Positions 8,008 to 59,118 of a stretch of 64,000 nt of DNA are shown piece after piece. This stretch comes from Streptantibioticus cattleyicolor NRRL 8057 = DSM 46488. GTDB taxonomy: Bacteria > Actinomycetota > Actinomycetes > Streptomycetales > Streptomycetaceae. The position numbers and the translations under genes are program-made. The stretch spans positions 5,593,228 to 5,657,227 of the forward strand of contig NC_017586.1 in assembly GCF_000240165.1 (NCBI RefSeq). Direction: 5' to 3'. Under the pieces are notes generated by a model, which made no database searches, was not told where the DNA came from, and was given only the letters and a program-made list of their open reading frames with translations. Position 1 is the stretch's first letter, and each line of letters begins with the position of its first letter.

Positions 8008-8035
8008 CGGGCCCGCCGCCACCTCGGCGGGCCCG
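8008..8035 (-). terminator. Hairpin terminator after the siderophore-interacting protein gene
   Basis: An 11-bp perfect stem, CGGGCCCGCCG paired with CGGCGGGCCCG across a 6-base loop, lies 12 bases past the stop codon of the siderophore-interacting protein gene. It separates that transcript from the leader-peptide transcript further along the same strand. Confidence 0.75.
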
Positions 8036-8046
8036 CGGCACCGGGC

Positions 8047-45236: not shown

Positions 45237-45904
45237 CGCCCATCCGCGTACTGATCGCCGACGACCAGATGATGGTCCGCCAGGGGTTCACCGTGCTGCT
45301 CAACGCCGAACCCGGCATCGAGGTCGTCGGCCAGGCCGTGGACGGCGCCGAAGCGGTCGCCCGGACCGCCGAACTCGCCCCCGACGTCGTGCTGATGGAC
45401 ATCCGCATGCCCGGCGTCGGCGGCATCGAGGCCACCCGCCGCATCACCGAACCGCCGGACGCCACCGCGAAGGTGCTGGTGCTGACCACCTTCGACCTCG
45501 ACGAGTACGTCTACGAGGCGCTGCGCGCGGGCGCCTCCGGCTTCCTGCTCAAGGACGCCTCGGCCGCCGAACTCGCCCACGCGGTACGGGTGGTGGCGGC
45601 CGGCGAGGCGCTGCTCGCCCCCAACATCACCAAGCGGCTGATCGCCGAGTTCTCCCGGATGACCGGCGCCCCCCGCGCCCCGCTGAAGGCACGGGCGGGC
45701 ACCCTCACCGAACGGGAGACCGAGGTGCTGGCGCTCATCGCGCACGGCCTGTCCAACGCCGAGATCGCCGAACGCCTCGTGGTGGCCGAGCAGACCGTCA
45801 AGACCCACGTCGGCCGCATCCTGCTCAAGCTCAACCTGCGCGACCGCACCCAGGCGGCGGTCTTCGCCTACGACACCGGACTGGTGCGCCCGGCCGGCTA
45901 CTGA
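45233..45904 (+). CDS. NarL/LuxR-family response regulator
   Basis: This 223-residue regulator has a receiver domain with acidic pocket (LIADDQMMV), phosphoacceptor Asp56 (VLMDIRMPG), Thr in VLTTFDLDEY and Lys in FLLKDAS; the LuxR-type HTH is LTERETEVLALIAHGLSNAEIAERLVVAEQTVKTHVGRILLKL. It is translationally coupled to the preceding kinase. The end of the gene overlaps the convergent SRPBCC gene by 7 bases, an unusually tight tail-to-tail junction without room for a terminator. Confidence 0.94.
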   Translation: MTPIRVLIADDQMMVRQGFTVLLNAEPGIEVVGQAVDGAEAVARTAELAPDVVLMDIRMPGVGGIEATRRITEPPDATAKVLVLTTFDLDEYVYEALRAGASGFLLKDASAAELAHAVRVVAAGEALLAPNITKRLIAEFSRMTGAPRAPLKARAGTLTERETEVLALIAHGLSNAEIAERLVVAEQTVKTHVGRILLKLNLRDRTQAAVFAYDTGLVRPAGY

Positions 45905-46350
45905 CCCCGCCGGGCCAGTGCCTTCTCCGCGGTCCGCAGGATGTTGCGGAACGTACCCGTCAGCACCGGCCGCACCAGCAGCCGGGTCAGCGGGGCGCCC
46001 AGCACCGGCAGACGCATCTCGGCACGGGTCGTCCAGCACACCCGGGTGCCGCCGTCCACCTCGGTGAAGGTCATCCGGCCCAGCTCGTGCCGGGACGGCG
46101 GCAGGCTGCGCTCGACCACGTACTCGGTGGCGTACGGCGGGTCGTAGTGGGTGATGCGTTCCCGGAACCAGCCCATCACCCACAGATGGCTGCGCACCGC
46201 GCCCACCCCGTAGGGCGCCCGCGCGCCGCGCCGGGCCAGACGGCACCGCAACACCAGCGGGGAGCCGGTGTAGTTGGTGGTCGTGGTCAGCCAGGCGAAC
46301 ACCTCGCCGATCGGGGCGTCGATGACGTGCTCCACGGTCATGGTCTCCAC
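45898..46350 (-). CDS. SRPBCC family protein
   Basis: This protein of about 150 residues has one START-like helix-grip domain: VEHVIDAPIGEVFAWLTTTTNYTGSPLVLRCRLA, a middle WVMGWFRERITHYDPPYATEYVVERSLPP, and VDGGTRVCWTTRAEMRLPVLGAPLTRLLVRPVL with a C-terminal helix. The GTG at 46350, with AGGAGGA eight bases upstream, is preferred over the ATG three codons later. It probably binds a small hydrophobic ligand; no specific role can be assigned. It converges with the response-regulator gene. Confidence 0.78.
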   Translation of the reverse strand: METMTVEHVIDAPIGEVFAWLTTTTNYTGSPLVLRCRLARRGARAPYGVGAVRSHLWVMGWFRERITHYDPPYATEYVVERSLPPSRHELGRMTFTEVDGGTRVCWTTRAEMRLPVLGAPLTRLLVRPVLTGTFRNILRTAEKALARRGQ

Positions 46351-46483
46351 CGCTGGTCTCCTCCTCGCGTCGGGTGCGCGGGCGCGGCCCGGCCGGACCG
46401 CCGCCCTCGTACACCAGTGGAGACAACGGGTGGGTGGCGGAGTGTGACACCGGGCCGTGGTGACGCCGGTCACCCCGGGCGGG

Positions 46484-47482
46484 TCAGCGGGCGGCGAGGA
46501 GTTCGAGGGTGTCGATCACGCGGTTGGAGAAGCCCCACTCGTTGTCGTACCAGGCGACCACCTTGACGTGGCGGCCGTCGACGCGGGTGAGGGCCGAGTC
46601 GAAGACGGCGGAGGCGGGGTTGCCCGTGATGTCGGAGGAGACCAGCGGGTCCTCGGAGTATTCGAGGATGCCGGCCAGCGGCCCTTCGGCGGCGGCGCGG
46701 TAGGCCGCCAGGACGTCCTCGCGCGTCACGTCGCGGGCGACGGTGGTGTTGAGTTCGACGATCGAGCCCACCGGGACCGGCACCCGGATCGAGTCGCCCG
46801 ACAGCTTGCCGTCCAGGCCCGGCAGCACCAGGCCGATCGCCTTGGCGGCGCCGGTGGTCGTCGGCACGATGTTGACGGCGGCGGCCCGGGCGCGGCGGGC
46901 GTCGCGGTGCGGACCGTCCTGGAGGTTCTGCTCCTGGGTGTAGGCGTGCACCGTCGTCATGAAACCGTGCTCGATCACGGCGAGTCGGTCGAGCACCGCG
47001 GCCAGCGGGGCGAGGGCGTTGGTGGTGCACGAGGCGTTGGAGACCACGGTGTGCGCGGCCGGGTCGTAGGCGTCGGTGTTGACCCCGTACGCCAGCGTGA
47101 CGTCGGCGCCCTCCGACGGCGCGCTGACCAGCACCTTCCGAGCACCGGCGGTGAGGTGGGCGCGGGCCGCGGCGGCCGAGGTGAAGCGGCCGGTGGCCTC
47201 CAGCACGAGGTCCACGCCGAGCCCGGCCCACGGCAGCCGCGCCGGTTCCCGCTCGGCGAGCACCGTGACGCGCCGGCCGTCGACGACCAGGGCGTCCCCG
47301 TCGGCGGTCACCGGACGGCCGAGCCGCCCGGCCGTGGTGTCGTAGGCGAGCAGCCGCGCGAGGGTGGCCGGGTCGGTGAGGTCGTTGACGGCGACGACCT
47401 CCAGGTCGCTGCCGCGCTCCAGCAGCGCGCGCAGCACGTTGCGTCCGATGCGGCCGAATCCGTTGATGGCGATACGAGTCAT
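46484..47482 (-). CDS. Glyceraldehyde-3-phosphate dehydrogenase, type I, probable second copy
   Basis: This 332-residue enzyme begins IAINGFGRIGRNVLRALLER (NAD site) and contains Cys152 (SNASCTTN), His179 (MTTVHAYT), the phosphate-site Thr/Arg (TTTGAAKAIG, RVPVP) and the terminal WYDNEWGFSNRVIDT. The usual central-glycolysis gap lies with pgk and tpi, so this one beside an AraC-family regulator is likely an accessory isozyme. Accessory GAPDHs in Streptomyces include forms insensitive to self-made inhibitors such as pentalenolactone; no such biosynthetic genes are visible here. Same strand as the regulator, 42 bases downstream of it. Confidence 0.92.
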   Translation of the reverse strand: MTRIAINGFGRIGRNVLRALLERGSDLEVVAVNDLTDPATLARLLAYDTTAGRLGRPVTADGDALVVDGRRVTVLAEREPARLPWAGLGVDLVLEATGRFTSAAAARAHLTAGARKVLVSAPSEGADVTLAYGVNTDAYDPAAHTVVSNASCTTNALAPLAAVLDRLAVIEHGFMTTVHAYTQEQNLQDGPHRDARRARAAAVNIVPTTTGAAKAIGLVLPGLDGKLSGDSIRVPVPVGSIVELNTTVARDVTREDVLAAYRAAAEGPLAGILEYSEDPLVSSDITGNPASAVFDSALTRVDGRHVKVVAWYDNEWGFSNRVIDTLELLAAR

Positions 47483-47524
47483 CGATGGTGTCCCTTCGGT
47501 TCGCCATCACTGTCGCCCGCCGCG

Positions 47525-48526
47525 TCAGCCCAGGCCAGCGGCGTGATCGCCACCGTTCGAAAGGATGTCGCCACCCCCGGCGGCGAAGGTGCGCCGGTAC
47601 TCGCTCGGCGTGGTGCCCAGGATGCGCTGGAAGTGCGTGCGCAGGTTGGCGCCGGTGCCGAGGCCGACGTCGGCGGCGATCCGCTCGACGCTGCGCGCGG
47701 AACGTTCCAGCAGCTCGCGGGCGAGGTCGACGCGGGCCCGCATGACCCATTGCATCGGCGTGTACCCGGTGTCCTCGACGAAGCGCCGCGAGAACGTCCG
47801 CGGCGACACCGCGGCGTGCCGGGCGAGCGCCTCCAGGGTGAGCGGCTCGCCGAGCCGGTGGAGCGCCCACTCGCGGGTGGCGGCGAACCGTTCGCCGAGC
47901 GGCTCGGGCACGCTGCGCGGCACGTACTGCGCCTGGCCGCCGCTGCGGTACGGGGCCGCGACCAGGCGCCGGGCCGCGTGGTTGGAGGCGGCCACCCCGA
48001 GGTCGCCGCGGAGGATGTGCAGGCACAGGTCGATGCCGGAGGCGGCGCCGGCCGACGTCAGCACGGTGCCTTCGTCGACGAACAGGACGTTCTCGTCGAC
48101 CCGCACGCGCGGGTGCCTGCGCGCGAGCGCCCGCGTGTAGTGCCAGTGCGTGGTGGCCCGCCTGCCGTCGAGCAGCCCCGTGGCGGCGAGCGCGAAGGCA
48201 CCCGTCGAGATCGCCGCGAGCCGCGCGCCCCCCGCGTGGGCGGCGACCAGGGCGTCGACCACGGCCCGCGGCGGGTCCTCTCGGTCCGGGAACCGGTAGC
48301 CCGGGATGAAGACGATGTCCGCCCACCCGAGCGCGTCGAGCCCGTGCGCGACGTCGTACGACAACCCGTCCCCGCCGGCCACCCGCCCCGGCGCCGCCCC
48401 GCACACCCGCACCTCGTACGGCATGCTCGCCCGGGTCGTGAACACCTGCGCCGGAATCCCCACGTCCAGCGGCTTCGCCCCCTCCAGCACGAGAACGGCG
48501 ACACGACGCAGACGGGACGCTGACAC
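47525..48526 (-). CDS. GlxA-like regulator: DJ-1/PfpI domain plus AraC HTH
   Basis: This 333-residue regulator has an N-terminal DJ-1/PfpI domain (RRVAVLVLEGAKPLDVGIPAQVF to LTSAGAASGIDLCLHILRG, with the elbow AISTGAFALAATGLLDGRRATTHW where Ser-Thr-Gly replaces a Cys nucleophile) and C-terminal double AraC HTH (LTLEALARHAAVSPRTFSRRFVEDTGYTPMQWVMRARVDLA; VERIAADVGLGTGANLRTHFQRILGTTPSEYRR). The GTG start at 48526 lacks a clear ribosome site; TAGTCT about 11 bases upstream suggests a leaderless mRNA. It precedes the GAPDH gene on the same strand and may regulate it. Confidence 0.9.
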   Translation of the reverse strand: MSASRLRRVAVLVLEGAKPLDVGIPAQVFTTRASMPYEVRVCGAAPGRVAGGDGLSYDVAHGLDALGWADIVFIPGYRFPDREDPPRAVVDALVAAHAGGARLAAISTGAFALAATGLLDGRRATTHWHYTRALARRHPRVRVDENVLFVDEGTVLTSAGAASGIDLCLHILRGDLGVAASNHAARRLVAAPYRSGGQAQYVPRSVPEPLGERFAATREWALHRLGEPLTLEALARHAAVSPRTFSRRFVEDTGYTPMQWVMRARVDLARELLERSARSVERIAADVGLGTGANLRTHFQRILGTTPSEYRRTFAAGGGDILSNGGDHAAGLG

Positions 48527-48564
48527 GGCCCCGAGACTACGCGGACCCCTCCCGCGAGCACGGC

Positions 48565-49155
48565 TCAGGGGGCTCGCGGTGATCGCCGCGGCATCGCGGC
48601 CGGGCGCAACCCGTACGCGGCCAGCCACCCCAGCACGTCGTCACGGGAGGCACCGACAAGGCGTCCACCCGTGAAGCGGGCGTCGTCGGTCACCTCCGCC
48701 ACGCACTGGGGAGGGGGAACGAAGGCCCGCGCCTCCTCGTCGGTGGCGAACTCGGCCTCCGCCAGGACCAGGCCCCGCAGGTGACCGTCGAAGACGTCGA
48801 CGCCCAACGGGGGCACGCTCAGCCGCGTCTTGCGCAGCACCGCGGCCGGCAGCGTGGCCATCAGGTCGTACTCCGCCTGCGACAAGTAGGTGTTGGTGAT
48901 CAGACCCTGCACCGCGCCCGGCCGGGGAATCGGTACCTTCTGGGTGAGTTTCAACTCCCGTGTACCGTCGGCGAGTACGGCCTGCCGCAACCGCAGACGT
49001 GTTCCCGTCAGATACCGGTCGGTGATCACCCGGGTGACCGTCACCGACGACGGTGCCGGCGGCCCGGCGAGCAGGAACCGCCTCTCCCGCTCGACGCGCG
49101 CGTACTTCCCCGGGAGAACCGAGCGGCCGTGGACCCCACCGGTCTTGTCCGTCAT
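48565..49155 (-). CDS. CYTH-domain protein (triphosphate tunnel metalloenzyme-like)
   Basis: This 196-residue protein contains the CYTH signature near the N-terminus as VERERRFLLAG (E-x-E-R-K/R-like), followed by VTRVITDRYLTGTRLRLRQAV, RELKLTQKVP and LGVDVFDGHLRGLVLAEAEFATDEEARAF, strands that line a triphosphate-binding tunnel. Family members hydrolyse tripolyphosphate, thiamine triphosphate or make cAMP. The final acidic strand and Arg/Lys pairs look retained. It starts 9 bases after the VOC gene stop on the same strand, so the two form an operon. Confidence 0.8.
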   Translation of the reverse strand: MTDKTGGVHGRSVLPGKYARVERERRFLLAGPPAPSSVTVTRVITDRYLTGTRLRLRQAVLADGTRELKLTQKVPIPRPGAVQGLITNTYLSQAEYDLMATLPAAVLRKTRLSVPPLGVDVFDGHLRGLVLAEAEFATDEEARAFVPPPQCVAEVTDDARFTGGRLVGASRDDVLGWLAAYGLRPAAMPRRSPRAP

Positions 49156-49164
49156 GACCGGCCC

Positions 49165-49905
49165 TCAGGACAGCGCGCAGACGCAGAACTCGTGGCCCTC
49201 CGGGTCGGCCAGGCACGTCCACGGGACGTCGCCCTGGCCGACGTCGAGGTCGGCGGCGCCGAGGGCCCGCAGTCGGGCCACCTCCGCCGCCTTGTCGTCA
49301 CCGGGGTACGGCAGCAGGTCGAGGTGGACGCGGTCGGGCCCGGTCGGCGCGCCGGGCGTGCGGAGGAATTCCAGGTACGGGCCGGTGCCCGTGGCGGAAC
49401 GCAACACCGCGCGGTCGTCGGTGACTTCGCGCACGGTCCAGTCCACCGCCTCGCCCCAGAACCGGGCCGTCGCCCACGGGTCCGCGCAGTCGACCACCAC
49501 CGCGGCGATCGGCCCGGTGTCCCGGTAGACCTCCCGTGGCTCCAGCACGCAGAACTCGTTGCCCTCCGGATCCGCCAGAACCGTCCACGGCACGTCACCC
49601 TGGCCGATGTCGGCCGGGGTCGCGCCGAGGGACCTCAGGCGCGCGACCAACTCCTCCTGATGTGCCGCGGTGTTGGTGGCGAGATCGATGTGCACACGGT
49701 TCTTGGCCGCCGTCTTCGCCTCCGGGACGGGAACGACGTCGATGCCGAGACCGTCCCGTTCCGGCCAGACGAGACCGCCGCCGGGTCCGGTGTAGGTGGT
49801 CACGCCGGTGTTGTGGGCACCCCACCCGAGCGCCTGCGCCCAGAACCGGCCGACCGTGGAGGGGTCGAGTGCCTTGATGTTCACCTGAACAGGTCGCAGT
49901 GGCAT
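49165..49905 (-). CDS. Two-domain VOC (glyoxalase-like) protein
   Basis: This 246-residue protein consists of two repeats of the beta-alpha-beta-beta-beta VOC unit. Each ends with a GQGDVPWTxLADPEGxEFCV motif (at about residues 104-121 and 223-241), and each contains a VHIDL/VHLDL strand. Typical VOC metal ligands are His in VHIDL and Glu in NEFCV/HEFCV. Such proteins can be dioxygenases, antibiotic-binding proteins or non-catalytic. It leads a short operon with the CYTH gene. Its start lies 33 bases from the left direct repeat of the adjacent island. Confidence 0.85.
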   Translation of the reverse strand: MPLRPVQVNIKALDPSTVGRFWAQALGWGAHNTGVTTYTGPGGGLVWPERDGLGIDVVPVPEAKTAAKNRVHIDLATNTAAHQEELVARLRSLGATPADIGQGDVPWTVLADPEGNEFCVLEPREVYRDTGPIAAVVVDCADPWATARFWGEAVDWTVREVTDDRAVLRSATGTGPYLEFLRTPGAPTGPDRVHLDLLPYPGDDKAAEVARLRALGAADLDVGQGDVPWTCLADPEGHEFCVCALS

Positions 49906-49937
49906 GGCGGTGATCCTATGCGCCGGCTCAGCGTTGA

Positions 49938-49969
49938 CATCCGGCGTCGCCGTGCGGTGCCGTGGGACC
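49938..49969. repeat. Island-flanking direct repeat, left copy (putative att site)
   Basis: These 32 bases (beginning CATCCGGCGTCGCC, ending GTGCCGTGGGACC) are identical and in the same orientation to 53799-53830. Upstream similarity continues imperfectly (CGCCGGCTC in both). At the right copy the sequence encodes the C-terminus of an alpha/beta hydrolase; here it is non-coding. Confidence 0.8.
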
Positions 49970-50019
49970 CCGCCGCGCCGACGTTCGGGCGTAGCGGGGT
50001 CCGTGGCCGGACGAGCGAG

Positions 50020-50235
50020 TCAGACGGTGCCGAACTCCCCAGTCTTGACGCCCGCCACGAAGGCAGTGAACGCGTCGGCGGGGAAGTGCAGAACCGCTCC
50101 GCTCGGGTCCTTGGAGTCACGGACGGGGACCACGCCGCGCGAGGCGACGAGGTTGGCGGCGACCTCGATGCAGGAACCACCGTTGCCGCTGTATGAAGAC
50201 TTGAACCAGGTGAGGGGGAGGGAGTCGGTCGTCAC
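50020..50235 (-). CDS. DUF397 protein
   Basis: This 71-residue DUF397 protein has the hallmark TWFKSSYSGNGGSCIEVA, then VPVRDSKDPSGAVLHFPADAFTAFVAGVK. DUF397 genes in Streptomyces nearly always sit beside an XRE/DUF5753 regulator (as in the whiJ and abaA-like loci) and the pair behaves like a regulator with a small cognate partner. Here the ATG overlaps the stop of the XRE gene by four bases. It is the leftmost gene of the repeat-flanked island. Confidence 0.92.
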   Translation of the reverse strand: MTTDSLPLTWFKSSYSGNGGSCIEVAANLVASRGVVPVRDSKDPSGAVLHFPADAFTAFVAGVKTGEFGTV

Positions 50236-51071
50236 AGGGTGCCCTTTCGTACCTGCTCGATCATGGCCACTGAATCCGCCTGGGAGAGCGCTTCGGCCTG
50301 TAGTTGATGGTAGGCCCTCACCAGCGGCAGTACGGATGTGATCTCGCGCTCCAAGTGCCCGTGGGTTTCGGACTCGACGTAGGAGAGCACCGAGCGGTCC
50401 GGCAGGGTCAGCAGATTCACCAGCCGGTTGAACGGACGCCGTTCGCCTATCGAGTAGGGCGCCAACTGGAGTGTGGTGTGTGGTTGGTCGGCGAACTCCA
50501 CCAGGCGTGCCAGTTGGGCGTCCATGACTGCGGGTCCGCCAACGGGCCGGCGGATGCAGCTCTCATCCAAGATCACGGCCACGAGAGGCGGTGTCCGTCG
50601 AACCAAAGCCGCCTGCCGTTCCGCCAGAAACTCGACTCGCTCTGACGCTTGTTCAGGGCTGAGCGTCCCCCGCTTTACGTTGCCCTCTTCCACGGCTCTT
50701 GCGTACTCCGGTGTCTGGAGCAGCCCGGGGATGACCCCGACTTCGAACATTCGGATCTCTGCCGCGCGAGCCTCTAGCTTCAGGTATTCCGGGAAGCCTT
50801 CCAACAGGCTGCCGTTCCGGATCTCCCCCCACGCGCGTTCGAACGACTCGGCGGACCCGGTGAGTCCGAGGGCGGTGTCCAAACTCCGCGAGAAACGACG
50901 AGTTGGCGGTTTGCGGCTTGTTTCCACAGCCGAAACATGCCTCCCTGAGTAACCCGTCCGCTCCGCCAACTCGTCCTGGGTCCAGCCGCGCGCCTCGCGA
51001 AAGCTGCGCAGACGCGCGCCGTAGGCCGCCTGTGGTGAGGCGTCCGGGTTCAACGCCTTCACGTTTACCAA
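50232..51071 (-). CDS. XRE-family regulator with C-terminal DUF5753
   Basis: This 279-residue regulator has an N-terminal helix-turn-helix (LRSFREARGWTQDELAERTGYSGRHVSAVETSRKPPT) and a C-terminal DUF5753 domain (IPGLLQTPEYARAV, ERVEFLAERQAAL, VILDESCIRRPVGGPAVM, PFNRLVNLLTLPD, VESETHGHLE). The TTG start at 51071 has GGAGGG five bases upstream. A possible -10 (TAGAGT on the minus strand, 51108-51113) lies in the 93-base divergent region shared with the small-ORF operon, so it probably regulates both. WhiJ-like members control development; the target here is unknown. Confidence 0.92.
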   Translation of the reverse strand: MVNVKALNPDASPQAAYGARLRSFREARGWTQDELAERTGYSGRHVSAVETSRKPPTRRFSRSLDTALGLTGSAESFERAWGEIRNGSLLEGFPEYLKLEARAAEIRMFEVGVIPGLLQTPEYARAVEEGNVKRGTLSPEQASERVEFLAERQAALVRRTPPLVAVILDESCIRRPVGGPAVMDAQLARLVEFADQPHTTLQLAPYSIGERRPFNRLVNLLTLPDRSVLSYVESETHGHLEREITSVLPLVRAYHQLQAEALSQADSVAMIEQVRKGTL

Positions 51072-51164
51072 TGTGCCCTCCGTTACTGGAACGTTGAAGA
51101 CACACCGACTCTAGGCCACGCTGAACCACCTGGGTAGTGGAACCGCTACGGAGAGGAGTGGCCG

Positions 51165-51419
51165 TTGTCCGGCGAGATTGACCCTGCGGAGCGCCAGGAA
51201 CCCCGAAACCTTCCGCCCGTCGGCATACTCCTGGTGGACGCGCACAACCGTGTCGGCGAGTTCCGCGGTGAGTGGTGCGGACTGTGGTCCCTGCGCCCCG
51301 TCGCGGGCGGTGTCGAGTGGACCGTCGCCCCCGAGGACGTGCGCCCGGCGAGCCCGGAACAGCGGTTGCGCGCCGAGCTGGTGCGCGCGAACGCGCGGAG
51401 CCGGGGTGAGTGTCTGTGA
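51165..51419 (+). CDS. Conserved small protein of DUF397/XRE cassettes
   Basis: This 84-residue protein starts with TTG behind GAGAGGAG. It has a single compact domain (VGILLVDAHNRVGEFRGEWCGLWSLRPVAGGVEWTVAPEDVRPASPEQRL) ending LVRANARSRGECL. I recall similar small proteins with V-G-E, L-R-P-x-G-G-G-x-E-W and V-R-P-A patterns near Streptomyces XRE regulators. No enzymatic signature. It begins a chain of overlapping genes; the next gene starts with a GTGA overlap. Function unknown. Confidence 0.72.
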   Translation: MSGEIDPAERQEPRNLPPVGILLVDAHNRVGEFRGEWCGLWSLRPVAGGVEWTVAPEDVRPASPEQRLRAELVRANARSRGECL

Positions 51420-51562
51420 CTCGCGCACGGTTCCGGTTCTTCAAGTGCTTCGAGCCTGCCCGGGACTGGACGTTCGAGCACTTGAAGGCGAACCCCGAGC
51501 ACGTCAGCTACGAACAGGTGGTGCGCCGCCCCTGGGGCATGGTGCGGGGGGAGCCGGTATGA
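51416..51562 (+). CDS. 48-residue hypothetical protein in the small-ORF chain
   Basis: The GTG start overlaps the previous stop (GTGA) and its TGA overlaps the next ATG (ATGA), so translation is coupled on both sides. The product begins TRARFRFFKCFEPARDWTFEHL and ends VVRRPWGMVRGEPV; it is aromatic-rich and basic. I do not recognise it. Tight coupling and conserved order argue that it is a real gene despite its size. Confidence 0.6.
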   Translation: MTRARFRFFKCFEPARDWTFEHLKANPEHVSYEQVVRRPWGMVRGEPV

Positions 51563-51930
51563 GCACCGCGGCGGATTGGGCCCGCGGTTACTGGTGCCAA
51601 GTGATCTACGACCAACTACGCGAGGGCGCCCCCTTCACTCTCGTCACGACCGATCCCACGGGCCGGTACGTGCTCGTCGCGTGGTCCGCGGACGTTCCCT
51701 GTCCGGCTGCCGCGTACTCCGCTGTCTGCGCGACGGTCGGCAGCCGACCGGCTGTCCCACGCACAGCAAGAGGAGAACAGCCATGGGCAAGGCGAAGAAC
51801 ACCGTTTCCGCCGCGAAGAACGCCATCAGGCGGGACACCGGGAAGCTCGCAGTGCAATCCCAACTTGGACGGCAGCGATTGTGCGCCCGCCGAGACACCC
51901 GCTTGTGACCCTTCCATTGAAGAAAGCTAG
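51559..51930 (+). CDS. Small hypothetical protein; the frame runs into a Cys-rich end
   Basis: This 123-codon frame begins MSTAADWARGYWCQVIYDQL with an ATGA overlap to the previous gene. The first 70 residues look like a small folded domain (PFTLVTTDPTGRYVLVAWSADVPCPAAAYSAV). After about residue 72 the frame turns Arg/Pro-rich where it overlaps another small ORF, then ends in a short Cys/Thr/Ser-rich stretch, SQCNPNLDGSDCAPAETPAC, before TAG. The true stop of the domain may have been lost, or the 3' part may be read from another start. I am unsure which frame is used after 51,780. Confidence 0.5.
   Translation: MSTAADWARGYWCQVIYDQLREGAPFTLVTTDPTGRYVLVAWSADVPCPAAAYSAVCATVGSRPAVPRTARGEQPWARRRTPFPPRRTPSGGTPGSSQCNPNLDGSDCAPAETPACDPSIEES
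51783..51908 (+). CDS. 41-residue basic peptide directly before the methyltransferase, candidate precursor
   Basis: The ATG at 51783 has a good ribosome site (AGAGGAG, eight bases upstream), the best in this chain. The product starts MGKAKNTVSAAKNAIRRD and ends LGRQRLCARRDTRL. The stop lies 27 bases before the methyltransferase ATG. Codon third positions look coding in the first half and less so after residue 24, exactly where the +1 frame offers the Cys-rich sequence noted for the overlapping ORF. A frameshift, programmed or as an error, would join the two. It could be the substrate peptide of the methyltransferase; this is inference from position and size. Confidence 0.55.
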   Translation: MGKAKNTVSAAKNAIRRDTGKLAVQSQLGRQRLCARRDTRL

Positions 51931-51935
51931 GCACC

Positions 51936-53081
51936 ATGGATTGGCAGAGCAGAGCGAACGCGCTCGCGGACCAGGTGACCGACCCCGATTCCCGGTGGCT
52001 CGTCCCCGTCGCCGACGTTCCCCGTCACGAGCTGGTCCCGCGCTGGTGGGAACGGGACGGCTCCGGGGCGTGGGAACTCCGTGACGGGCCGAGCGACCCG
52101 GAGGCGTGGGCGGAAGCGGCCTACGCGGACCGCTCGTTGGTCACCAGGGTGGGCCCGCTCCACGCCGACCAGGCCGAACCCGGCGACCGTCCCGAGGGAC
52201 GGCCCACGTCGTCCGCCACGCTGCCGAGCCTGGTCGTGCGCATGCTGCGGCACGGCCGACTCGGCGACGGACTCTCCCTGCTCGACCTGGGCACGGGGGC
52301 CGGCGGGCTCGCCGCGTACGCCTGTCACCGGCTCGGGGACGCGTGCGTGACGAGTCTGGACATCGACCCCTACCTGGTCAGTGCGGCAGGGGAACGGCTC
52401 GCCGGCATGGGCTTCCACCCGACCCTGATCACCGCGGACGCCACCAAGGAAGTACCCGGAACGTACGACCGCATCGTGTCCACGGTCGCGTTCCCGCCCG
52501 GCCGGGGGCTCCAACCAGTATTGAGAGCACTGGAATTCGGGGGGCGGATCGCCACCACCCTGGCCCGCACTTCCTTCATCGTCACCGGGTGGAAGGACCG
52601 GCACGGGGACGTGGTGGGCCGGGTGGAACGAGAGTGGGCCGGGTTCATGGCAACTCGGTCCGGCGAGGACTACCCGCCCGCTCTTGACGACCTGTTCGCG
52701 CTCGCCCGCGAAGCGGACGGAGAACAGACCAGGACCGGCCGCTACCCCGTGGTGGACGTGGGCAACGCGTGGGAACTCCGGTCCATGCTGGAAGTCACCG
52801 TCCCCGGCATCGAGTCGGACTACGAGACCAGCGGACGGCAACGCACCGCCTACCTCGCGCACCCCGATGGTTCCTGGGCGCGCGCCTCCGCCGAGCGCAC
52901 CGACCCGCCCGAAGTACACCAAAGCGGCCCGCAACGACTCTGGGACGCCCTGGAACGCATCCGCCACCGGCTCAACGCGGAAGGGAGTCTGCCCCTCTAC
53001 GGTGCACACGTCCGCATCACGCCCGACGGGGTAGTCCACCTGTCCCGCGGAAAGTGGCGTGCGTCCATGGGCGCGCGATAG
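51936..53081 (+). CDS. PCMT-like SAM methyltransferase of RiPP (ATP-grasp/FxLD) type
   Basis: This 381-residue methyltransferase has an N-terminal VPVADVPRHELVPRWW and a TSSATLPSLVVRML segment like protein-isoaspartate methyltransferases, SAM motif I LSLLDLGTGAGGLAAYACHRLG (residues 113-134), the acidic strand end VTSLDIDPYLVSAA, and VSTVAFPP. The C-terminal 160 residues are family-specific. This arrangement resembles the methyltransferases of ATP-grasp or FxLD peptide systems, which modify an Asp/Glu of a ribosomal peptide. No ATP-grasp or lanthionine enzyme is present in the window. The target may be the small peptide just upstream. A hairpin follows downstream. Confidence 0.78.
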   Translation: MDWQSRANALADQVTDPDSRWLVPVADVPRHELVPRWWERDGSGAWELRDGPSDPEAWAEAAYADRSLVTRVGPLHADQAEPGDRPEGRPTSSATLPSLVVRMLRHGRLGDGLSLLDLGTGAGGLAAYACHRLGDACVTSLDIDPYLVSAAGERLAGMGFHPTLITADATKEVPGTYDRIVSTVAFPPGRGLQPVLRALEFGGRIATTLARTSFIVTGWKDRHGDVVGRVEREWAGFMATRSGEDYPPALDDLFALAREADGEQTRTGRYPVVDVGNAWELRSMLEVTVPGIESDYETSGRQRTAYLAHPDGSWARASAERTDPPEVHQSGPQRLWDALERIRHRLNAEGSLPLYGAHVRITPDGVVHLSRGKWRASMGAR

Positions 53082-53165
53082 ACCCCGGCACGGACCCCCG
53101 TTCATCCGTGCCGGACCGTGGCACCCCCGACCGGACCAGCCCCGAGCACGGGCAGACGTGCCCAA

Positions 53166-53185
53166 CCTGAGCTGACGGGCTCAGG
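53166..53185 (+). terminator. Hairpin after the methyltransferase
   Basis: CCTGAGC pairs with GCTCAGG across a 6-base loop, about 85 bases past the stop codon. The rest of the 178-base gap before the next gene contains no further gene. Confidence 0.5.
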
Positions 53186-53238
53186 CTCCGGCCCCGGTCC
53201 GCCCCTTCACTGGGGTGCCGCTCCCGTTGGAGCGGTGA

Positions 53239-53251
53239 GGGTGTCACACCC
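53239..53251. promoter_or_regulatory. Short perfect palindrome before the small zinc-type gene pair
   Basis: GGGTGTCACACCC is a perfect inverted repeat centred on one base, about 10 bases before the GTG at 53260. With a one-base loop it cannot form an RNA hairpin, so a dimeric repressor site is more likely. Nothing shows which protein binds. Confidence 0.3.
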
Positions 53252-53259
53252 CCGCCCGT

Positions 53260-53532
53260 GTGCTGTTTTCCCGTGGCACGCGGGCGGGGCTCCCTCTTCT
53301 CCGGCAGCAAGGGACCCCCTGTGCGACAGTGCCCCGCCACGGCCGAACTGCCCCCGCTGATCTACTTCTTGCGATCCTCATCGGACAACCACGAGTCACG
53401 TGGGAACTGCGACTCCGACAGGAACGGCGGCGCGCGGTCGCCCTCGCCACCATGGGCGTGGACTACCCGTACACCTACGAGGGCGCACCCTTCCCGCGCT
53501 CAGCGTTCGCGGCATCGGGGGTGAGCGCATGA
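53260..53532 (+). CDS. Small conserved hypothetical protein
   Basis: The C-terminal part reads WELRLRQERRRAVALATMGVDYPYTYEGAPFPRSAF, a pattern (Y-P-Y-T-Y-x-G-A-P-F-P) I associate with small Streptomyces and phage-borne hypothetical proteins. The start is uncertain: GTG at 53260 gives 90 residues, GTG at 53329 gives 67. The stop overlaps the next ATG by four bases. No function can be given. Confidence 0.55.
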   Translation: MLFSRGTRAGLPLLRQQGTPCATVPRHGRTAPADLLLAILIGQPRVTWELRLRQERRRAVALATMGVDYPYTYEGAPFPRSAFAASGVSA

Positions 53533-53726
53533 CCGCCGAGGAACTGTTCCCCGACGTGCTGTCCGGCCACGTGGCAGTGTGCATCGAGTGCAAGGCTCTG
53601 ACGCGCGCCCCGGTCCCCGTGCGGTGGATCCAGAGCACCAGCGGCCCCGGAACGACCCTCTACGCCTGCCCTGACCACGTCGTGGAACTCGGCGTGGGGC
53701 CGACCCCGGACGACGTGATCCGGTAA
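53529..53726 (+). CDS. Small Cys-containing conserved hypothetical protein
   Basis: This 65-residue protein begins MTAEELFPDVLSGHVAVCIECKALT and has CIEC, then YACPDH, a C-x-x-C plus C-x-x-H set that could bind one zinc ion. The middle reads PVRWIQSTSGPGTTLYACPDH. Coupled to the previous gene by ATGA. Similar proteins occur with small regulators and mobile elements in Streptomyces as I recall. Function unknown. It is the last gene of the island; the right direct repeat begins 72 bases later. Confidence 0.65.
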   Translation: MTAEELFPDVLSGHVAVCIECKALTRAPVPVRWIQSTSGPGTTLYACPDHVVELGVGPTPDDVIR

Positions 53727-53797
53727 CCCCGTGGACCAGCCTCACCAGCCCTGTTCGGCAACCCGCTGAGCGGGGCTTTCGCGCCGGCTCGGCGACG

Positions 53798-54709
53798 TCA
53801 TCCGGCGTCGCCGTGCGGTGCCGTGGGACCGCGGCTGTCACTGGCGCTCCGCCAGAACGCGCGCAGGGCGGTGACGAGCGCTTCGGGCGCGTCTTCCGCG
53901 ATGTGGTGTCCGGAGTCGATCGGGCCGCCGTCCAACCGGTCGCCGGTCCAGTCCCGCCATACGCCGAGCACGTCTCCGTGGAGGTCGGCCATGTCGTCGC
54001 GGGTGGCCCACAGCACCTGCACCGGGCAGGTGATGCGTCGGCCGGCCCGGCGGTCGGTGTCGTCGTGCTCCCGGTCGATGCCGAGGCCGGCGCGGTAGTC
54101 CTCGCACATGGCGTGCACGGTGGCCGGGTCGTGGATGGCGCGTTGGTAGTCCTGGTACGCCTCGGCGCCCATCTGCTCGGGTGTGGCCCTGTACCAGGCG
54201 TCGGGGTCGGCGTTGATGACGCGTTCGGCGGCCTTGTCGGTCTGGCCGAGGAAGAACCAGTGCCACCATCGCGCGGCGAAGACGGCGTCGCAGCGCCGCA
54301 ACGCCTCCCCGATGGGCACGGCGTCCAGCACGGTGAGGGCGGACACGGCCTGCGGGTGGTCCAGGGCGAGGCGGGTGGCCACGTACGCGCCCCGGTCGTG
54401 CCCGACGACCGCGAACCGTTCGTGCCCGAGGCGGCGCATCACCGCCAGGCAGTCGGCCGCCATGGCGCGCTTGGCGTACGGACGGTGCTCCGGATCGGTC
54501 GGGGGCTTGTCGGACCGGCCGTAGCCGCGCAGATCGGGGCAGACCACGGTGCGCCCGGACGCGGCCAGCAGCGGGGCGACGCGGTGCCAGGTCACGTGCG
54601 TGCGCGGGTGACCGTGCAGCAGCAACACCGCCGGTCCGTCGCCGCCGCGACGCACCCTCAGGTGGGCGCCGTCCCCCTCGCACCGCGTCAACGCGAAGCC
54701 GTCGAACAC
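53798..54709 (-). CDS. Alpha/beta hydrolase, fluoroacetate-dehalogenase-like
   Basis: This 303-residue hydrolase has the oxyanion HGHP (32-35), nucleophile Asp105 in VVGHDRGAY, the WHWFFLGQ segment whose His-Trp pair binds halide in fluoroacetate dehalogenase, and the C-terminal SGHHIAEDAP with the catalytic His. The dehalogenase carboxylate clamp has Arg at HDRGGR; here the second Arg is replaced (HDRGAY), so activity on fluoroacetate is doubtful. An epoxide hydrolase or other haloacid enzyme is possible. The 3' end is the right copy of the 32-bp repeat flanking the island, so insertion occurred at this gene's end without disrupting it. Confidence 0.87.
   Translation of the reverse strand: MFDGFALTRCEGDGAHLRVRRGGDGPAVLLLHGHPRTHVTWHRVAPLLAASGRTVVCPDLRGYGRSDKPPTDPEHRPYAKRAMAADCLAVMRRLGHERFAVVGHDRGAYVATRLALDHPQAVSALTVLDAVPIGEALRRCDAVFAARWWHWFFLGQTDKAAERVINADPDAWYRATPEQMGAEAYQDYQRAIHDPATVHAMCEDYRAGLGIDREHDDTDRRAGRRITCPVQVLWATRDDMADLHGDVLGVWRDWTGDRLDGGPIDSGHHIAEDAPEALVTALRAFWRSASDSRGPTAPHGDAG
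53799..53830. repeat. Island-flanking direct repeat, right copy
   Basis: This is identical to 49938-49969. It encodes the last ten residues and the stop of the alpha/beta hydrolase, which suggests that this was the target sequence and that the left copy is the duplicate or displaced end. Confidence 0.8.
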
Positions 54710-54895
54710 GTGGCCTCCTTGCCCCGGACGTCGTGACCCACGTGCCCTGGTACCCGTTCCACGCGTCCGTACCCGGTCGACGGGCGGGTGCCGGTGGTGA
54801 CGCGGTGGCCGGCCCCCCGTGCGTTCCCGGCGAGGCCGGCCACCGCGGCGAACGCGACCGCCCGCGGGCAGGCGGTCCCGTTCACAAGGTGCCGC

Positions 54896-55345
54896 TTACG
54901 GCGCGGTGATCTCACGCTTCAGCTTCGAACTCCAGGGACACCACGTCGAATTGGGCAGGAGCGCACCGCCGACCTCGCTCAGGTGGTCGTTGACGTAGGC
55001 GATGCTCGCGTCGCACACCTCCACGGCCATGCTGAAGAACTTCACCGAGTCAGGGGCGAGTTGGTACTTCCAGGGCTTGTTGTACGGGGCCGGCGTCTTG
55101 ACGACGGTGCCCATGACGCCGACGTTCTCCTTGTCCACCCCGCTGATGATGTCGCGGGCCTGCTTGATTCTGGCGGGGTCGGTGAGCTGGAAGACGAAGG
55201 TGTCCTTGCCGTCGGTGAACTCGAAGTAGGCCGCGGGACGGGTGCCCGCTCCACCGCTCTGCGCCGCCTGCGCGGGCTGGGCCACGGCCAGGGCGAACAT
55301 CGAGACCGCCGCGAGGCTGCCGACCTTGGTGATGGTACGTCGCAT
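54896..55345 (-). CDS. Secreted BP74-like protein
   Basis: This 149-residue protein has a signal peptide (MRRTITKVGSLAAVSMFALA, cleavage after AQAA). The mature domain, YFEFTDGKDTFVFQLTDPARIKQARDII ... GTVVKTPAPYNKPWKYQLAPDSVKFFSMAVEVCDASIAYVNDHL ... STWCPWSSKL, matches the BP74 family, often annotated as calmodulin-binding in Streptomyces. Two Cys (VEVCDAS and TWCPWSS) probably form a disulfide. The signal shows export; the function is unknown. AGGAGG lies ahead of the ATG. The promoter must be in the 519-base gap upstream. Confidence 0.8.
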   Translation of the reverse strand: MRRTITKVGSLAAVSMFALAVAQPAQAAQSGGAGTRPAAYFEFTDGKDTFVFQLTDPARIKQARDIISGVDKENVGVMGTVVKTPAPYNKPWKYQLAPDSVKFFSMAVEVCDASIAYVNDHLSEVGGALLPNSTWCPWSSKLKREITAP

Positions 55346-55864
55346 GGTTCAGACCTCCTGTGCTCCTCGGGTCACTTCCGCGCCCGTCTGCGGCAAACGT
55401 AGGTGAGAAACCAAAGAGACGGCATATCACTGGAAAAGATTGCCCCAAAGAACCCTCCAGGGCTTCCCAATGTGCCTTGACGGGCGGCTACTTGGCGGGT
55501 CGCGGAGGGCAGCCCTCTCTGGCCGTACGAGGGGTCGCCTTGTCGTGCACCCCCGGATAGCCGCCCTTCGGAGGGGTAGGCGGATGTCCTCACCGCGCGG
55601 GGGAGGAGGAATGGGGATGTGCCGCACACCCGATCGGGCGGAATCGCCCCAGATCTCGCGATGGCGGGGTAGGCGACTTCAGGTGAGGACCGACCACCGG
55701 GGAGGACTGTTGCCGTTTGACAATAATAGCCGTGAGGCAACAAAGTTGGCCGTGACGGACGTACGCGGGGAAGGGCCTGGAATGCTCCGGTGGACGGAGA
55801 CCCCTCCGCGTGCGGGCCGCGATCGTCGGCGGGCGACGATCGCGCGGGGATCGCGAACGGCGGT
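55346..55864. other. Long intergenic stretch with an AT-rich island and inverted repeat
   Basis: I see no gene on either strand. An AT-rich core at 55715-55731 (TTGACAATAATAGCC) is enclosed by a 6-bp inverted repeat, GTTGCC at 55709-55714 and GGCAAC at 55736-55741. Within it GACAATAATAGCC matches 9 of 13 positions of the perfect AGCAATAATTGCT found before rsbR, so the same MarR-type protein may bind both. The BP74 promoter is probably in this region on the minus strand. Confidence 0.5.
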
Positions 55865-56350
55865 TCAGGCGGTCCGGCTCCCCACGCCCGGCGCGTCATC
55901 GTGTATCTGCGTCGCCGCTGTGGCGCAGAACGCCTCCAGGCCCTCCAGGAGCGCGACGCGCTTGGCGGCGGGCATGTCCGCCAGTACCTTCCGCAACTCC
56001 TTCTCCCTGCGGACGCGCAGGTCGGCGAGGAAGGCCCGGCCCCGGCCGCTGAGGTGCAGCCGCACCTCGCGCCGCTGCTCCGGGCTGGTCACCCGCTCGA
56101 CGAAGCCGGCGGCCACGAGCCGGTCGCACAGCCGGCTGGTGGACGGTGGGGTGGAGGCCAGGTGCTCGGCGAGCGTGCGCAGGTTGATGCCGTCGTGGTG
56201 TTCCAGGATGTGCAGCACGCGCAGCTGGGACGCGGAGGTGGGTGCGGTGGAGGCCCGGCCCCACACGACTTCCAGCAGCTCGGCGGCCGTGGTGGTCACA
56301 CGTGCGACCTCTTCGGGCTCGGGGCGGCGGCGGAAAGCAGTCACGATCAC
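55865..56350 (-). CDS. MarR-family regulator (left flank of the stressosome locus)
   Basis: This 161-residue winged-helix regulator has the MarR core LRTLAEHLASTPPSTSRLCDRLVAAGFVERVTSPEQRREVRLHLSGRGRAFL, with N- and C-terminal dimerisation helices. It is paralogous to the MarR at 62453-62959 (shared SRLCDRL-x-AAG-x-x-ERV and RREV-x-L-x-L-(S/T)-G). It is divergent from the PP2C gene at 56489 and probably controls the locus. A single Cys near the C-terminus (EAFCATAAT) could serve in redox sensing, as in some MarR proteins; that is speculation. Confidence 0.88.
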   Translation of the reverse strand: MIVTAFRRRPEPEEVARVTTTAAELLEVVWGRASTAPTSASQLRVLHILEHHDGINLRTLAEHLASTPPSTSRLCDRLVAAGFVERVTSPEQRREVRLHLSGRGRAFLADLRVRREKELRKVLADMPAAKRVALLEGLEAFCATAATQIHDDAPGVGSRTA

Positions 56351-56488
56351 ACTCTCGCAGGCACTGGGGTGGCTGCCAGCGTACTAGGCGCATGCGCCGG
56401 CCACAGGTGCTTCGGGTGACCGACGTGGCACAAGCAAGGGTTTGACCTGGTAGGGGACGTCTGTCCGTTTATCTGGCGAAAGATTGAT

Positions 56489-57670
56489 ATGTTTCATAAT
56501 GTGAACAGATTCGAGGCCGCTGAACGCGCTCTGCGCACGGCGGCCCCCCACGAGTTGCTCGACGCCGTCCGGGCCGTACTGGTCGAGCGGTACGGCGCCA
56601 AGGAGGTCGAGCTGTTCATGGCCGACTACGGCCTGGCGGTGCTGCAACCGGTCTCGGAGCTGCCGCACACGCTGGATCCGGTGTCGGTGCACAACAGCCC
56701 GGCCGGCCGGGCCTTCGGGTCGCAGGAGCCGTACTGCGAGGACCTGCGGACGGGGGCGCGGCTGCATCTGCCGGTCAGCGTGCGCGGCGACCGGCTCGGG
56801 GTGCTGTCCGTCACGCTGCCCGACAGGGACGCCGCCCGGGACTGCGCGTCGGAACTGGCCCAGATCGCCGACGTGCTGGGCCACGAGGTGGTCGTCGCCG
56901 AACGCGACACCGACCTGTACCTCCAGGCGCGGCGCAAGGGGCGGCTCACGCTGGCCGCCGAGATGCAATGGCAGCTTCTGCCCGGCCGCTCCTGCTCGCG
57001 CCCCGAGTACGACCTCGGGGCCCAACTGGAGCCCGCCTACGCCATCTTCGGTGACAACTTCGACTGGTCGGCCACCGCCGACCGCCTGATGCTGTACGTC
57101 ACCAACGGCATGGGCGAGGGCATAGAGGCCTCCTTGCTGACGAACCTGGCCATCAACGCGCTGCGCAACGCCCGGCGCGCCGGTATCTCCATCGCCGACC
57201 AGGCGGCCCTGGCCGACCAGGCGGTCTACGCGCACTACCAGGGGCGCTGCTACCTGTCGGTCCTGATGTTCGACTTCGACCTGGCCACCGGACGGGCGAG
57301 CGTGGTGGACGCCGGCTCCCCGCAACTGCTGCGGATGCGGGACGGCGTCGTGGAGCGGATCACCTTCGACGCCCAGTTGCCGCTGGGGATGTTCGAGGAG
57401 ACCGACTACGTGGCGCAGGACTTCCAGGCCGAGCCCGGCGACCGGCTGGTCTTCGTCAGCGACGGCGTCCACGCGGTGGCCTCCCCGAAGGGCGAGGCGT
57501 ACGGGGAAGCGGCGCTCGCGCGGGCCATCCAGTCCACCCGCCTGCTGCCCGCCGCGGAGGTTCCGCGTGCCATCCTGCGGGAGTTGACCGGCCACCGCGG
57601 CGAGGCGCTGCCCGCCGATGACGCCCTGATCGTGTGCCTGGACTGGCGTGGCAGGCCGCTCGGCCACTGA
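56489..57670 (+). CDS. PP2C/SpoIIE-family protein with altered metal site
   Basis: This 393-residue protein has a GAF-like N-terminal half (ELLDAVRAVLVERYGAKEVELFMADYGLAVLQPV ... LHLPVSVRGDRLGVLSVTLP) and a PP2C/SpoIIE domain (AEMQWQLLPGRSC onward). The first metal motif is FGDNFDWS where active enzymes have GGDWYD, keeping both Asp. The second, normally GDVxGHG, is TNGMGEG, so its Asp is Asn. Later FVSDGVHAV and LPADDALIVCL retain Asp. Activity may be reduced or lost, leaving a regulatory pseudophosphatase. It lies between the MarR gene and rsbR, on the same strand as the stressosome operon. The ATG lacks a strong ribosome site. Confidence 0.83.
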   Translation: MFHNVNRFEAAERALRTAAPHELLDAVRAVLVERYGAKEVELFMADYGLAVLQPVSELPHTLDPVSVHNSPAGRAFGSQEPYCEDLRTGARLHLPVSVRGDRLGVLSVTLPDRDAARDCASELAQIADVLGHEVVVAERDTDLYLQARRKGRLTLAAEMQWQLLPGRSCSRPEYDLGAQLEPAYAIFGDNFDWSATADRLMLYVTNGMGEGIEASLLTNLAINALRNARRAGISIADQAALADQAVYAHYQGRCYLSVLMFDFDLATGRASVVDAGSPQLLRMRDGVVERITFDAQLPLGMFEETDYVAQDFQAEPGDRLVFVSDGVHAVASPKGEAYGEAALARAIQSTRLLPAAEVPRAILRELTGHRGEALPADDALIVCLDWRGRPLGH

Positions 57671-57734
57671 CCGGGGTTTGCGGTGATTGTGGCGATCGCG
57701 TGTTGTTCCGCCCATCCCCCTCGCGTTAACGTTT

Positions 57735-57761
57735 GCCATGTAGCAATAATTGCTTGATGGC
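57735..57761. promoter_or_regulatory. 27-bp palindromic operator upstream of rsbR
   Basis: GCCAT, two unpaired bases, AGCAAT, a central A, ATTGCT, two unpaired bases, ATGGC: 11 of 13 positions per arm are symmetrical. It is AT-rich amid GC-rich DNA and lies 42-68 bases before the rsbR start, a typical MarR-dimer operator. Two MarR genes flank the locus. Confidence 0.7.
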
Positions 57762-57802
57762 TTGCCACCCGGTGGGCCGACGGGCCTCGCGGCAGGGAGA
57801 CG

Positions 57803-58702
57803 ATGCAGGTGGCGGAGGAGCACGACATGGCCCCGGAGGTCGCGCGGGAACTGGGAGGCTTTCTGGAACAGCGCCGGGAGCAGATCGCCCAGCGGTGGGC
57901 GGACACCGCCCTGTTCCGTACGGTCTTCACCGTGTCCCGCGACGAGGCGGTGGAGGCGTGCAAGGCCGTGGTCGACGCCCTGGCGGTCGTGGCCCGCTCC
58001 GGACGGCTGGAGGACACCGAGGCGCCGGGCTTCGGCGCCGTGCGGGAACAGCTCGGCCGGATGGCCGCCTCCCGCGCCCAGGCCGGGTTCAGCACCTCCC
58101 AGGTCGCCGGCGAGGTCGCCCGCCTGCGGGAGCCGGCCACCGCTTTGCTGCGCGCCGAGTTCGACGACCCGTCCGGCGAGCCCGCGCACGCCTGCGCTCT
58201 CGCGCTCACGACGCTTCTCGGCACACTCCGCCTGGTCGTCATGGAGACCACCGTCAGCTCCGGTGAGGAACTGATCGCCCGGCAGCGCCAGCAGCTGCTG
58301 GAGGTGGCCACCCCGGTCATCAAGCTGTGGGAGAACATCGTCGCCGTACCGCTCATCGGCACCCTGGACAGCGCCCGCAGCCAGGTCGTGATGGAGAACC
58401 TGCTGGAGGCGATCGTGGACGAGCGGGCGCGGTACGCCATTCTCGACATCACCGGGGTCCCCACCGTCGACTCGCTCGTGGCGCAGCACCTGATGAAGAC
58501 GGTCGCCGCGGCCCGGCTGATGGGCGCCGAGTGCATCGTCTCCGGGATCCGGCCGGCGATCGCGCAGACCATCGTCCACCTCGGCATCGACCTGGGGACG
58601 ATCGTCACGCGAGCCGGTCTCGCCGACGCCCTGGCGTACGCGCTCGCCCAGCAGGGCATCGCCGTCTCCAACCGCCCGGCGGCGGGAGCGAGTTCGCGGT
58701 GA
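57803..58702 (+). CDS. Stressosome scaffold protein RsbR-like (STAS domain)
   Basis: This 299-residue protein has a helical N-terminal sensor half (LGGFLEQRREQIAQRWADTALFR ... AGFSTSQVAGEVARL, an RsbRD_N-like region) and a C-terminal STAS domain (ATPVIKLWENIVAVPLIGTLDSARSQ; ILDITGVPTVDSLVAQHL; GIRPAIAQTIVHLGIDL). The conserved Thr/Ser sites for RsbT phosphorylation lie in DITGVPTVDS. The ATG at 57803 follows GGGAG. With RsbS and RsbT, coupled directly downstream, it would form the stressosome core that holds RsbT until stress. Confidence 0.9.
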   Translation: MQVAEEHDMAPEVARELGGFLEQRREQIAQRWADTALFRTVFTVSRDEAVEACKAVVDALAVVARSGRLEDTEAPGFGAVREQLGRMAASRAQAGFSTSQVAGEVARLREPATALLRAEFDDPSGEPAHACALALTTLLGTLRLVVMETTVSSGEELIARQRQQLLEVATPVIKLWENIVAVPLIGTLDSARSQVVMENLLEAIVDERARYAILDITGVPTVDSLVAQHLMKTVAAARLMGAECIVSGIRPAIAQTIVHLGIDLGTIVTRAGLADALAYALAQQGIAVSNRPAAGASSR

Positions 58703-59118
58703 CCGCGTCCTCCGCCACCACCGCGAACCCGGTGCCGGTCCTGGCACTGGGCGACGTCCTGCTGGTGACCCTGCAAGGAGAACCGCACGACGGGGCGGCC
58801 GAACAACTGCACCACGACATCTCCCACCGCATCGCCCACAGCCCGGTGCCGGTGGGCGGTGTCGTGATCGACATCTCCGGTGTGGAGATCGTCGACTCCT
58901 TCCTCGGCCGGATCCTGGCCGAGATCGCCGCGACCGCCCGCCTGCTGGCCACCCGGACGGTGCTGGCCGGGATGCGTCCGGCGGTGGCCATCACCCTGGT
59001 CGAGCTGGGGCTCACCCTGCCCGGACTGGACACCGCCCTGGACGTCGGCAGGGCTCTGGCCCTGCTGGGCCGCGCCCCCGCGGCACCCTCACCCGCCCAC
59101 CCGGAAGAGGGTGCGTGA
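58699..59118 (+). CDS. rsbS: Stressosome protein RsbS-like (STAS domain)
   Basis: This 139-residue single STAS-domain protein has the RsbS phosphorylation motif VVIDISGVEIVDSFLGRILAEI (Ser67 in VDSF) and GMRPAVAITLVELGL, nearly as in Bacillus subtilis. The GTG start overlaps the rsbR stop (GTGA). It is phosphorylated by RsbT upon stress, releasing RsbT to activate a PP2C phosphatase. The C-terminal tail (APAAPSPAHPEE) is non-conserved. Confidence 0.93.
   Translation: MTASSATTANPVPVLALGDVLLVTLQGEPHDGAAEQLHHDISHRIAHSPVPVGGVVIDISGVEIVDSFLGRILAEIAATARLLATRTVLAGMRPAVAITLVELGLTLPGLDTALDVGRALALLGRAPAAPSPAHPEEGA

Follow-up and report, generated by a model that had tools for sequence, protein, structure and literature searches.

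Methylation of an aspartate, followed by conversion to aspartimide and then to isoaspartate, is known for the peptide L-aspartyl O-methyltransferases (PAMTs) of lanthipeptides, lasso peptides, graspetides and imiditides/pamtides. The published imiditides and type I pamtides consist of a PAMT and a peptide alone (Cao et al. 2023; Lee et al. 2023; PMC13001092), and such PAMT-only RiPPs exist in Streptomyces. Type I precursors are Gly/Pro/Asp-rich peptides of ~45 aa, and the precursor of the type II pamtide/cysimiditide is a zinc ribbon of the form CxxCxGxG-D-CxxCxGxG. In graspimiditide (group 13 graspetide) clusters (TIGR04187/TIGR04188), the methyltransferase is accompanied by an ATP-grasp ligase. 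A further type was reported by Lee et al. 2023 (PMC10787088), who described 249 clusters composed of a radical-SAM enzyme (rSAM) and a PAMT, in which no precursor was found.

The locus considered here (Table 1) lies in a window of 64,000 nucleotides from Streptantibioticus cattleyicolor, whose genome of 8.1 Mb comprises two contigs; the window belongs to the one of 6.28 Mb. A preliminary description had proposed it as a candidate minimal RiPP-like cassette, in which a few coupled tiny genes lead to a methyltransferase in what may be a peptide-methylation system not described before. Its ORF coordinates, GTGA/ATGA overlaps and neighbours are all present in the sequence where it placed them. It is nevertheless highly probable that the locus arose by deletions from an rSAM-PAMT cassette under XRE/DUF397 control; the PAMT left in it may still methylate an Asp substrate.

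Table 1. Features of the locus, in coordinates of the window
Feature	Position	Strand	Basis or remark
DUF397 protein, 71 aa, partner of XRE regulator	50020..50235	-	PF04149 2e-22
XRE-family regulator, HTH_31 + DUF5753, 279 aa	50232..51071	-	PF13560, PF19054
Divergent promoter region and ORF1 ribosome-binding site	51072..51164	.	Sequence conserved among six loci
ORF1, intact small protein, 84 aa	51165..51419	+	TTG start; predicted beta-barrel and C-terminal helix
ORF2, DUF7848 protein with in-frame internal deletion	51410/51416..51562	+	50 aa, against 89 aa in related locus L046
ORF3	51559..51930	+	N-terminal part like the 163-aa ORF3 of L046 (GYWC.V motif)
ORF4, 41 aa	51783..51908	+	Good ribosome-binding site; first 22 codons of a 58-aa ORF of related locus L060
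3' end remnant of deleted radical-SAM/SPASM gene	51847..51930	+	SQCNPNLDGSDCAPAETPACDPSIEES and stop
PIMT-like peptide/protein L-aspartyl O-methyltransferase (PAMT), 381 aa, intact	51936..53081	+	TIGR04188, PF01135
Probable ORF5 remnant	53260..53532	+	3' part alone resembles ORF5 of L046 and L055; by eye, weak
ORF6, Cys/His-ribbon protein, 65 aa	53529..53726	+	54% to ORF6 of L046

The methyltransferase and its relatives

Judged by its sequence, the enzyme belongs among the PAMTs. The closest NCBIfam model is TIGR04188, the ATP-grasp peptide maturase methyltransferase, which matches residues 8-365 with 212.9 bits and thus far below its curated cut-off of 380 bits; the FxLD model TIGR04364 reached 41 bits (cut-off 320) and the canonical TIGR00080 15.9 bits (cut-off 159). 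The earlier assignment to a methyltransferase of ATP-grasp or FxLD systems is therefore retained as far as the peptide-maturase (PIMT-like, PAMT) kind is concerned and given up for FxLD. The best fold match of the predicted structure (pLDDT 85.8), aligned over nearly the whole model, is the Thermotoga PIMT 1DL5, a solved structure which Lee et al. 2023 (PMC10787088) placed in the PAMT clade. A PIMT fold and the PF01135 match would equally be expected of a housekeeping isoaspartyl-repair methyltransferase (canonical PIMT), but the C-terminal domain that the 381-aa enzyme shares with the PAMT clade, the full-length TIGR04188 match beside so low a TIGR00080 score, a patchy distribution (51 of 395 genomes) and the linkage to rSAM or ATP-grasp partners make such a housekeeping role extremely improbable. 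By analogy with characterised PAMTs, the enzyme would transfer a methyl group from SAM to the side chain of one specific Asp of a peptide or protein, and the methylated residue would form an aspartimide that opens to isoaspartate.

In a tree of 49 PAMTs the window protein is nested in an rSAM-linked clade, a starred set of 15 rows comprising both rSAM-intact and rSAM-remnant loci, and ATP-grasp-linked PAMTs form a separate clade. Most relatives 67-81% identical to it are preceded, within ~20 bases upstream, by a radical-SAM/SPASM enzyme of 288 aa (PF04055, PF13186; no NCBIfam equivalog) with a Cys-rich tail such as CPPDDSGDCDPANTEACDPAY. With identity thresholds set after the match lists had been seen and neighbouring genes called by a simple script, 17 of 19 PAMTs of at least 55% identity in 395 Streptomycetaceae genomes had an adjoining rSAM, which together with the tree places the window PAMT in the rSAM-linked lineage; of the two exceptions, G230 is an ATP-grasp locus and G205 carries a remnant of the rSAM tail. 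In the reciprocal search of the same genomes, all 25 rSAMs at least 50% identical to the L046 enzyme lay within 2.5 kb of a PAMT, and no close rSAM without a PAMT was found.

The window PAMT retains 78 of 79 near-invariant positions. It shares RLNAEGSLP with its rSAM-linked relatives, where the ATP-grasp-linked protein of L059 has HWLKHGELP; since this deviation is common to the rSAM-linked group, it is a group difference and no sign of decay. The earlier statement that no ATP-grasp gene lies beside the methyltransferase agrees with a tblastn search with an ATP-grasp query, which gave no match over window positions 45001-60000, and both this absence and the low TIGR04188 score set the locus apart from graspimiditide clusters. 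Elsewhere in the same genome (G000:C2; L003 at 564-2529 and L010 at 6406-8371) an ATP-grasp gene is paired with a related methyltransferase, probably a graspetide locus with a methyltransferase.

The radical-SAM remnant and the paralogous copy

The last ~25 codons of an rSAM gene end five bases before the start of the methyltransferase. Twelve Streptomyces loci (L043, L045, L046, L048, L051-L053, L055-L058 and L060) have an rSAM with a tail of this kind immediately ahead of the PAMT. In L046 the complete order is DUF397-XRE, divergent from ORF1-DUF7848-ORF3-rSAM-methyltransferase-ORF5-ORF6, with an ORF1 of 84 aa, an ORF2 (DUF7848) of 89 aa and an ORF3 of 163 aa; L048 and L055 are similar, ORF5 and ORF6 included. 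The closest rSAM-PAMT relatives have in common the XRE/DUF397 switch and as many as five small proteins, a context (XRE/DUF397, ORF1, DUF7848, ORF3) which, as far as the main text of Lee et al. (PMC10787088) was consulted, is not mentioned there, and which adds facts to the question of the substrate of rSAM-PAMT clusters.

In a piecewise comparison ORF1 is collinear with L046 and L048 as well as with a paralogue that this genome also carries, ORF2 lacks its middle, ORF3 is cut short, and the window retains the start of the L060-type 58-aa ORF and then the rSAM tail; at DNA level, positions 51467-51606 match L046 and positions 51718-51837 match L060 (74%). No rSAM homologue lies elsewhere in the genome, where the best match has just 31% identity over 140 residues. 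The window PAMT is homologous to those of the two-gene clusters (PMC10787088), and relatives at 75-81% identity have the pair, whereas the rSAM body is deleted in both the window and its paralogue. In place of an intact rSAM adjoining the PAMT, the 3' tail alone is left, and the locus is a derivative of the two-gene cluster and not a complete member of it.

The ancestral locus would have been an XRE/DUF397-controlled cassette with a core of a radical-SAM/SPASM enzyme followed by the PAMT. On this reading, deletions took away the body of the rSAM gene and the greater part of ORF4, cut off the end of ORF3 and excised the middle of ORF2. The rSAM 3' tail now abuts the intact PAMT, and XRE/DUF397, ORF1 and the PAMT, plus ORF6, remain expressible. 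With the rSAM deleted and the methyltransferase kept, the locus is no newly designed minimal peptide system: it is a leftover of a known pair, and that lead is closed. The word stripped-down applies literally, the missing partner being the radical-SAM enzyme. The suggestion of novelty fails as well, as both systems of a peptide and a methyltransferase (imiditides/pamtides) and rSAM-PAMT pairs have been published. The locus is best classed, as a derivative formed by deletion, under a known type of cluster that is still without an assigned substrate.

Remnants of rSAM before the PAMT also occur in L021, L035, L044, L047, L049 and L054, and in the PAMT tree the starred branches require three or more changes to account for the six rSAM-remnant loci labelled there. 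Repeated loss of the rSAM body with retention of the PAMT, against no close rSAM lacking its PAMT in the reciprocal search, would, if real, mean that the PAMT has a job independent of rSAM; given a small sample in which many loci were found via the methyltransferase, this asymmetry is only suggestive. In S. blattellae (L044:1-1900), transposase-like sequence was seen by eye to replace the 5' part of the rSAM gene, directly before an intact methyltransferase.

The paralogue is carried by the other contig, a megaplasmid of 1.81 Mb (C1). It keeps XRE/DUF397, ORF1, the rSAM tail remnant and the PAMT, and the interval from ORF1 to the tail is gone, so that rSAM was lost there via a different, larger deletion. 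Sequencing error as the source of the rSAM loss was rejected, since the deletion spans hundreds of bases and differs in the paralogue, whose arrangement agrees with an independent plasmid record (99.9%). The rSAM tail was also rejected as a retained substrate, as the tail of the paralogue lacks a start codon and has lost its stop.

The two PAMTs are 88% identical and both reading frames are intact. Over residues 116-381 dN/dS is 0.28, and 43 amino-acid changes separate the copies against 76.9+-4.2 under random placement of the same base changes; none of 5000 runs was as low as 43, and 70% of the runs with the observed number of changes carried a stop. Purifying selection on the PAMT is therefore clear. 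As its signal may partly predate the rSAM loss, a present function of the lone enzyme stays presumptive. The value of 0.28 is somewhat above the 0.14-0.23 of rSAM-bearing pairs, which fits relaxation. The first 115 codons (51936-52280, compared with the paralogue in L009) are nearly identical and the rest differs by ~14% at the DNA level, which suggests recent gene conversion between the chromosomal and megaplasmid copies.

Within the deletion history, the lone PAMT would either continue to modify its former substrate, the rSAM step being omitted, or be a relic in the course of being lost. A PAMT that is dead or drifting and no longer serves any function would suit the heavily deleted surroundings, the slightly raised dN/dS and the lack of an rSAM partner in the genome; set against full frames in both copies in spite of the frequent stops in simulation, amino-acid changes far below random, the conserved near-invariant positions and the apparent recent conversion, this reading is rather unlikely. 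We infer a continuing function.

Immediately downstream, the paralogue is followed by a different radical-SAM protein of 318 aa (G000:C1:656364-657317, minus strand; L009 at 6364-7317), then by a small ORF ending in ...VIVDDVESLTEGTTPGCNDDNPYR, which looks like a RiPP precursor, and by a protein of unknown family. This rSAM has common homologues, present in 48 of 200 family genomes; as they match it in two segments with a break near residue 155, the copy is probably internally deleted.

Small ORFs and the search for a precursor

The three or four tiny genes of the preliminary description, there made part of a candidate RiPP-like cassette, are present as ORFs, but they are not all complete genes. 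ORF2, which overlaps the ORF1 stop as GTGA (51416-51419), matches PF25232 only in the second half of the profile (positions 45-79 of 80), the middle of the domain being gone; a full-length DUF7848 protein is found elsewhere in the genome without the methyltransferase. ORF3, whose start overlaps the ORF2 stop as ATGA, continues beyond its N-terminal part as an open frame through ORF4-region DNA into the rSAM tail. ORF4 resembles the 58-aa ORF that is intact in L060 over 22 aa (64%) and then reads the rSAM tail out of frame, which makes it a product of the junction. No significant family was returned when ORF1, ORF3, ORF4 and ORF6 were scanned.

The predicted structure of ORF1 (pLDDT 85.7) is a compact barrel of five strands followed by a C-terminal helix, and a fold search with the model gave weak barrel-type matches only, none below E 0.001. 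Its paralogue, which starts with GTG instead of TTG, is 89% identical, with 9 amino-acid changes against 20.4 expected at random. Because the predicted fold argues against it, ORF1 is unlikely to be a precursor. ORF1-type proteins recur at 13 of 32 related loci, and many rSAM-PAMT loci lack one; in the same genome, an ORF1-type protein is divergent from another XRE/DUF397 pair with no PAMT-type methyltransferase adjoining. Besides XRE/DUF397, no cassette genes other than ORF1 and the PAMT have stayed intact in both copies, and Asp25 of ORF1, at a predicted strand end before a turn, is invariant in ten aligned proteins. On a very improbable reading, the cassette can do without the rSAM step and the substrate of the PAMT is a small folded protein, for which ORF1 with this Asp would be the most plausible candidate; if true, rSAM-PAMT clusters would gain their missing substrate.

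Downstream of the PAMT, tblastn with ORF5 gave no match at the position of its probable remnant, and the resemblance seen by eye is RRRAVALATMGVDYP. ORF6 has the same downstream place in L046, L048 and L055 and is the sole copy in the host genome; it has CxxC and CxxH, and neither a CxxCxGxG motif nor a conserved Asp in the hairpin.

All ORFs of 20-200 aa within 4.5 kb of the PAMT were compared all-against-all in 32 related loci, 31 of them with rSAM. Among the matches listed, those recurring were DUF397, XRE, ORF1-type, DUF7848, ORF3, ORF5/6, a GntR-type regulator and shadow frames, and no conserved precursor-like peptide was among them, in agreement with the finding of Lee et al. (PMC10787088). 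An acidic, precursor-like peptide of 49 aa just before the rSAM of L046 (L046:3803-3952, ending in GATASLGGYLLLIG) was rejected, as it is not conserved in L043, L045, L048 and L052.

A working PAMT-only system of the imiditide/pamtide type, with one of the small ORFs as its precursor, would draw on the intact and conserved PAMT, on the Streptomyces precedents, in which likewise no other modifying enzyme adjoins the PAMT, and on the intact ORF1 beside both PAMT copies. Beside the window PAMT there is, however, no precursor of the type I make-up, ORF4 being a fragment of 41 aa without Pro; the type II motif was absent from all window ORFs on inspection; ORF1 has a predicted fold and an occurrence independent of the PAMT; and the neighbourhood is of the rSAM type and not of the precursor type. 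Taken with the comparison of the 32 loci, this makes a PAMT-only system improbable. A small unrecognised precursor elsewhere in the genome is possible. The small ORFs are most likely accessory proteins of XRE/DUF397 loci or gene fragments, and a precursor role for them stays hypothetical.

The regulator pair and the upstream region

The methyltransferase is indeed divergent from an XRE/DUF397 pair, as first described, both proteins being recognised by their Pfam matches. The DUF397 gene has the same place in L046, L047, L048, L049, L052, L055 and the megaplasmid paralogue, and XRE homologues divergent from the cassette are 68% identical in L046 and 72% in the paralogue. In the intergenic region, DNA alignment A3 shows conserved blocks around CCACGCTGAAC...GGTAGT and CTACGGAGAGGAG. 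The pair would regulate the cassette; it is one of many, with 36 DUF397 matches in the host genome.

Like the XRE-DUF397 regulatory pairs of Streptomyces (BldB/WhiJ type), it is an intact divergent pair with DUF5753 and DUF397, whereas the adjoining genes of the window form, as far as found, no published regulon. Graspetides of groups 11 and 13 co-occur with DUF397/DUF5753 pairs too (PMC13097080), so an association of this kind was already known.

A small protein with a likely signal peptide is encoded at 54896-55345 on the minus strand of the window. By eye it resembles a protein at L071:1234-1581 (minus strand), which adjoins another XRE/DUF397/ORF1 locus of the same genome; the two, both near XRE/DUF397 pairs, share sequence of the type FF..A.EVCDA......HL.E.GGA.LP...WCPW.
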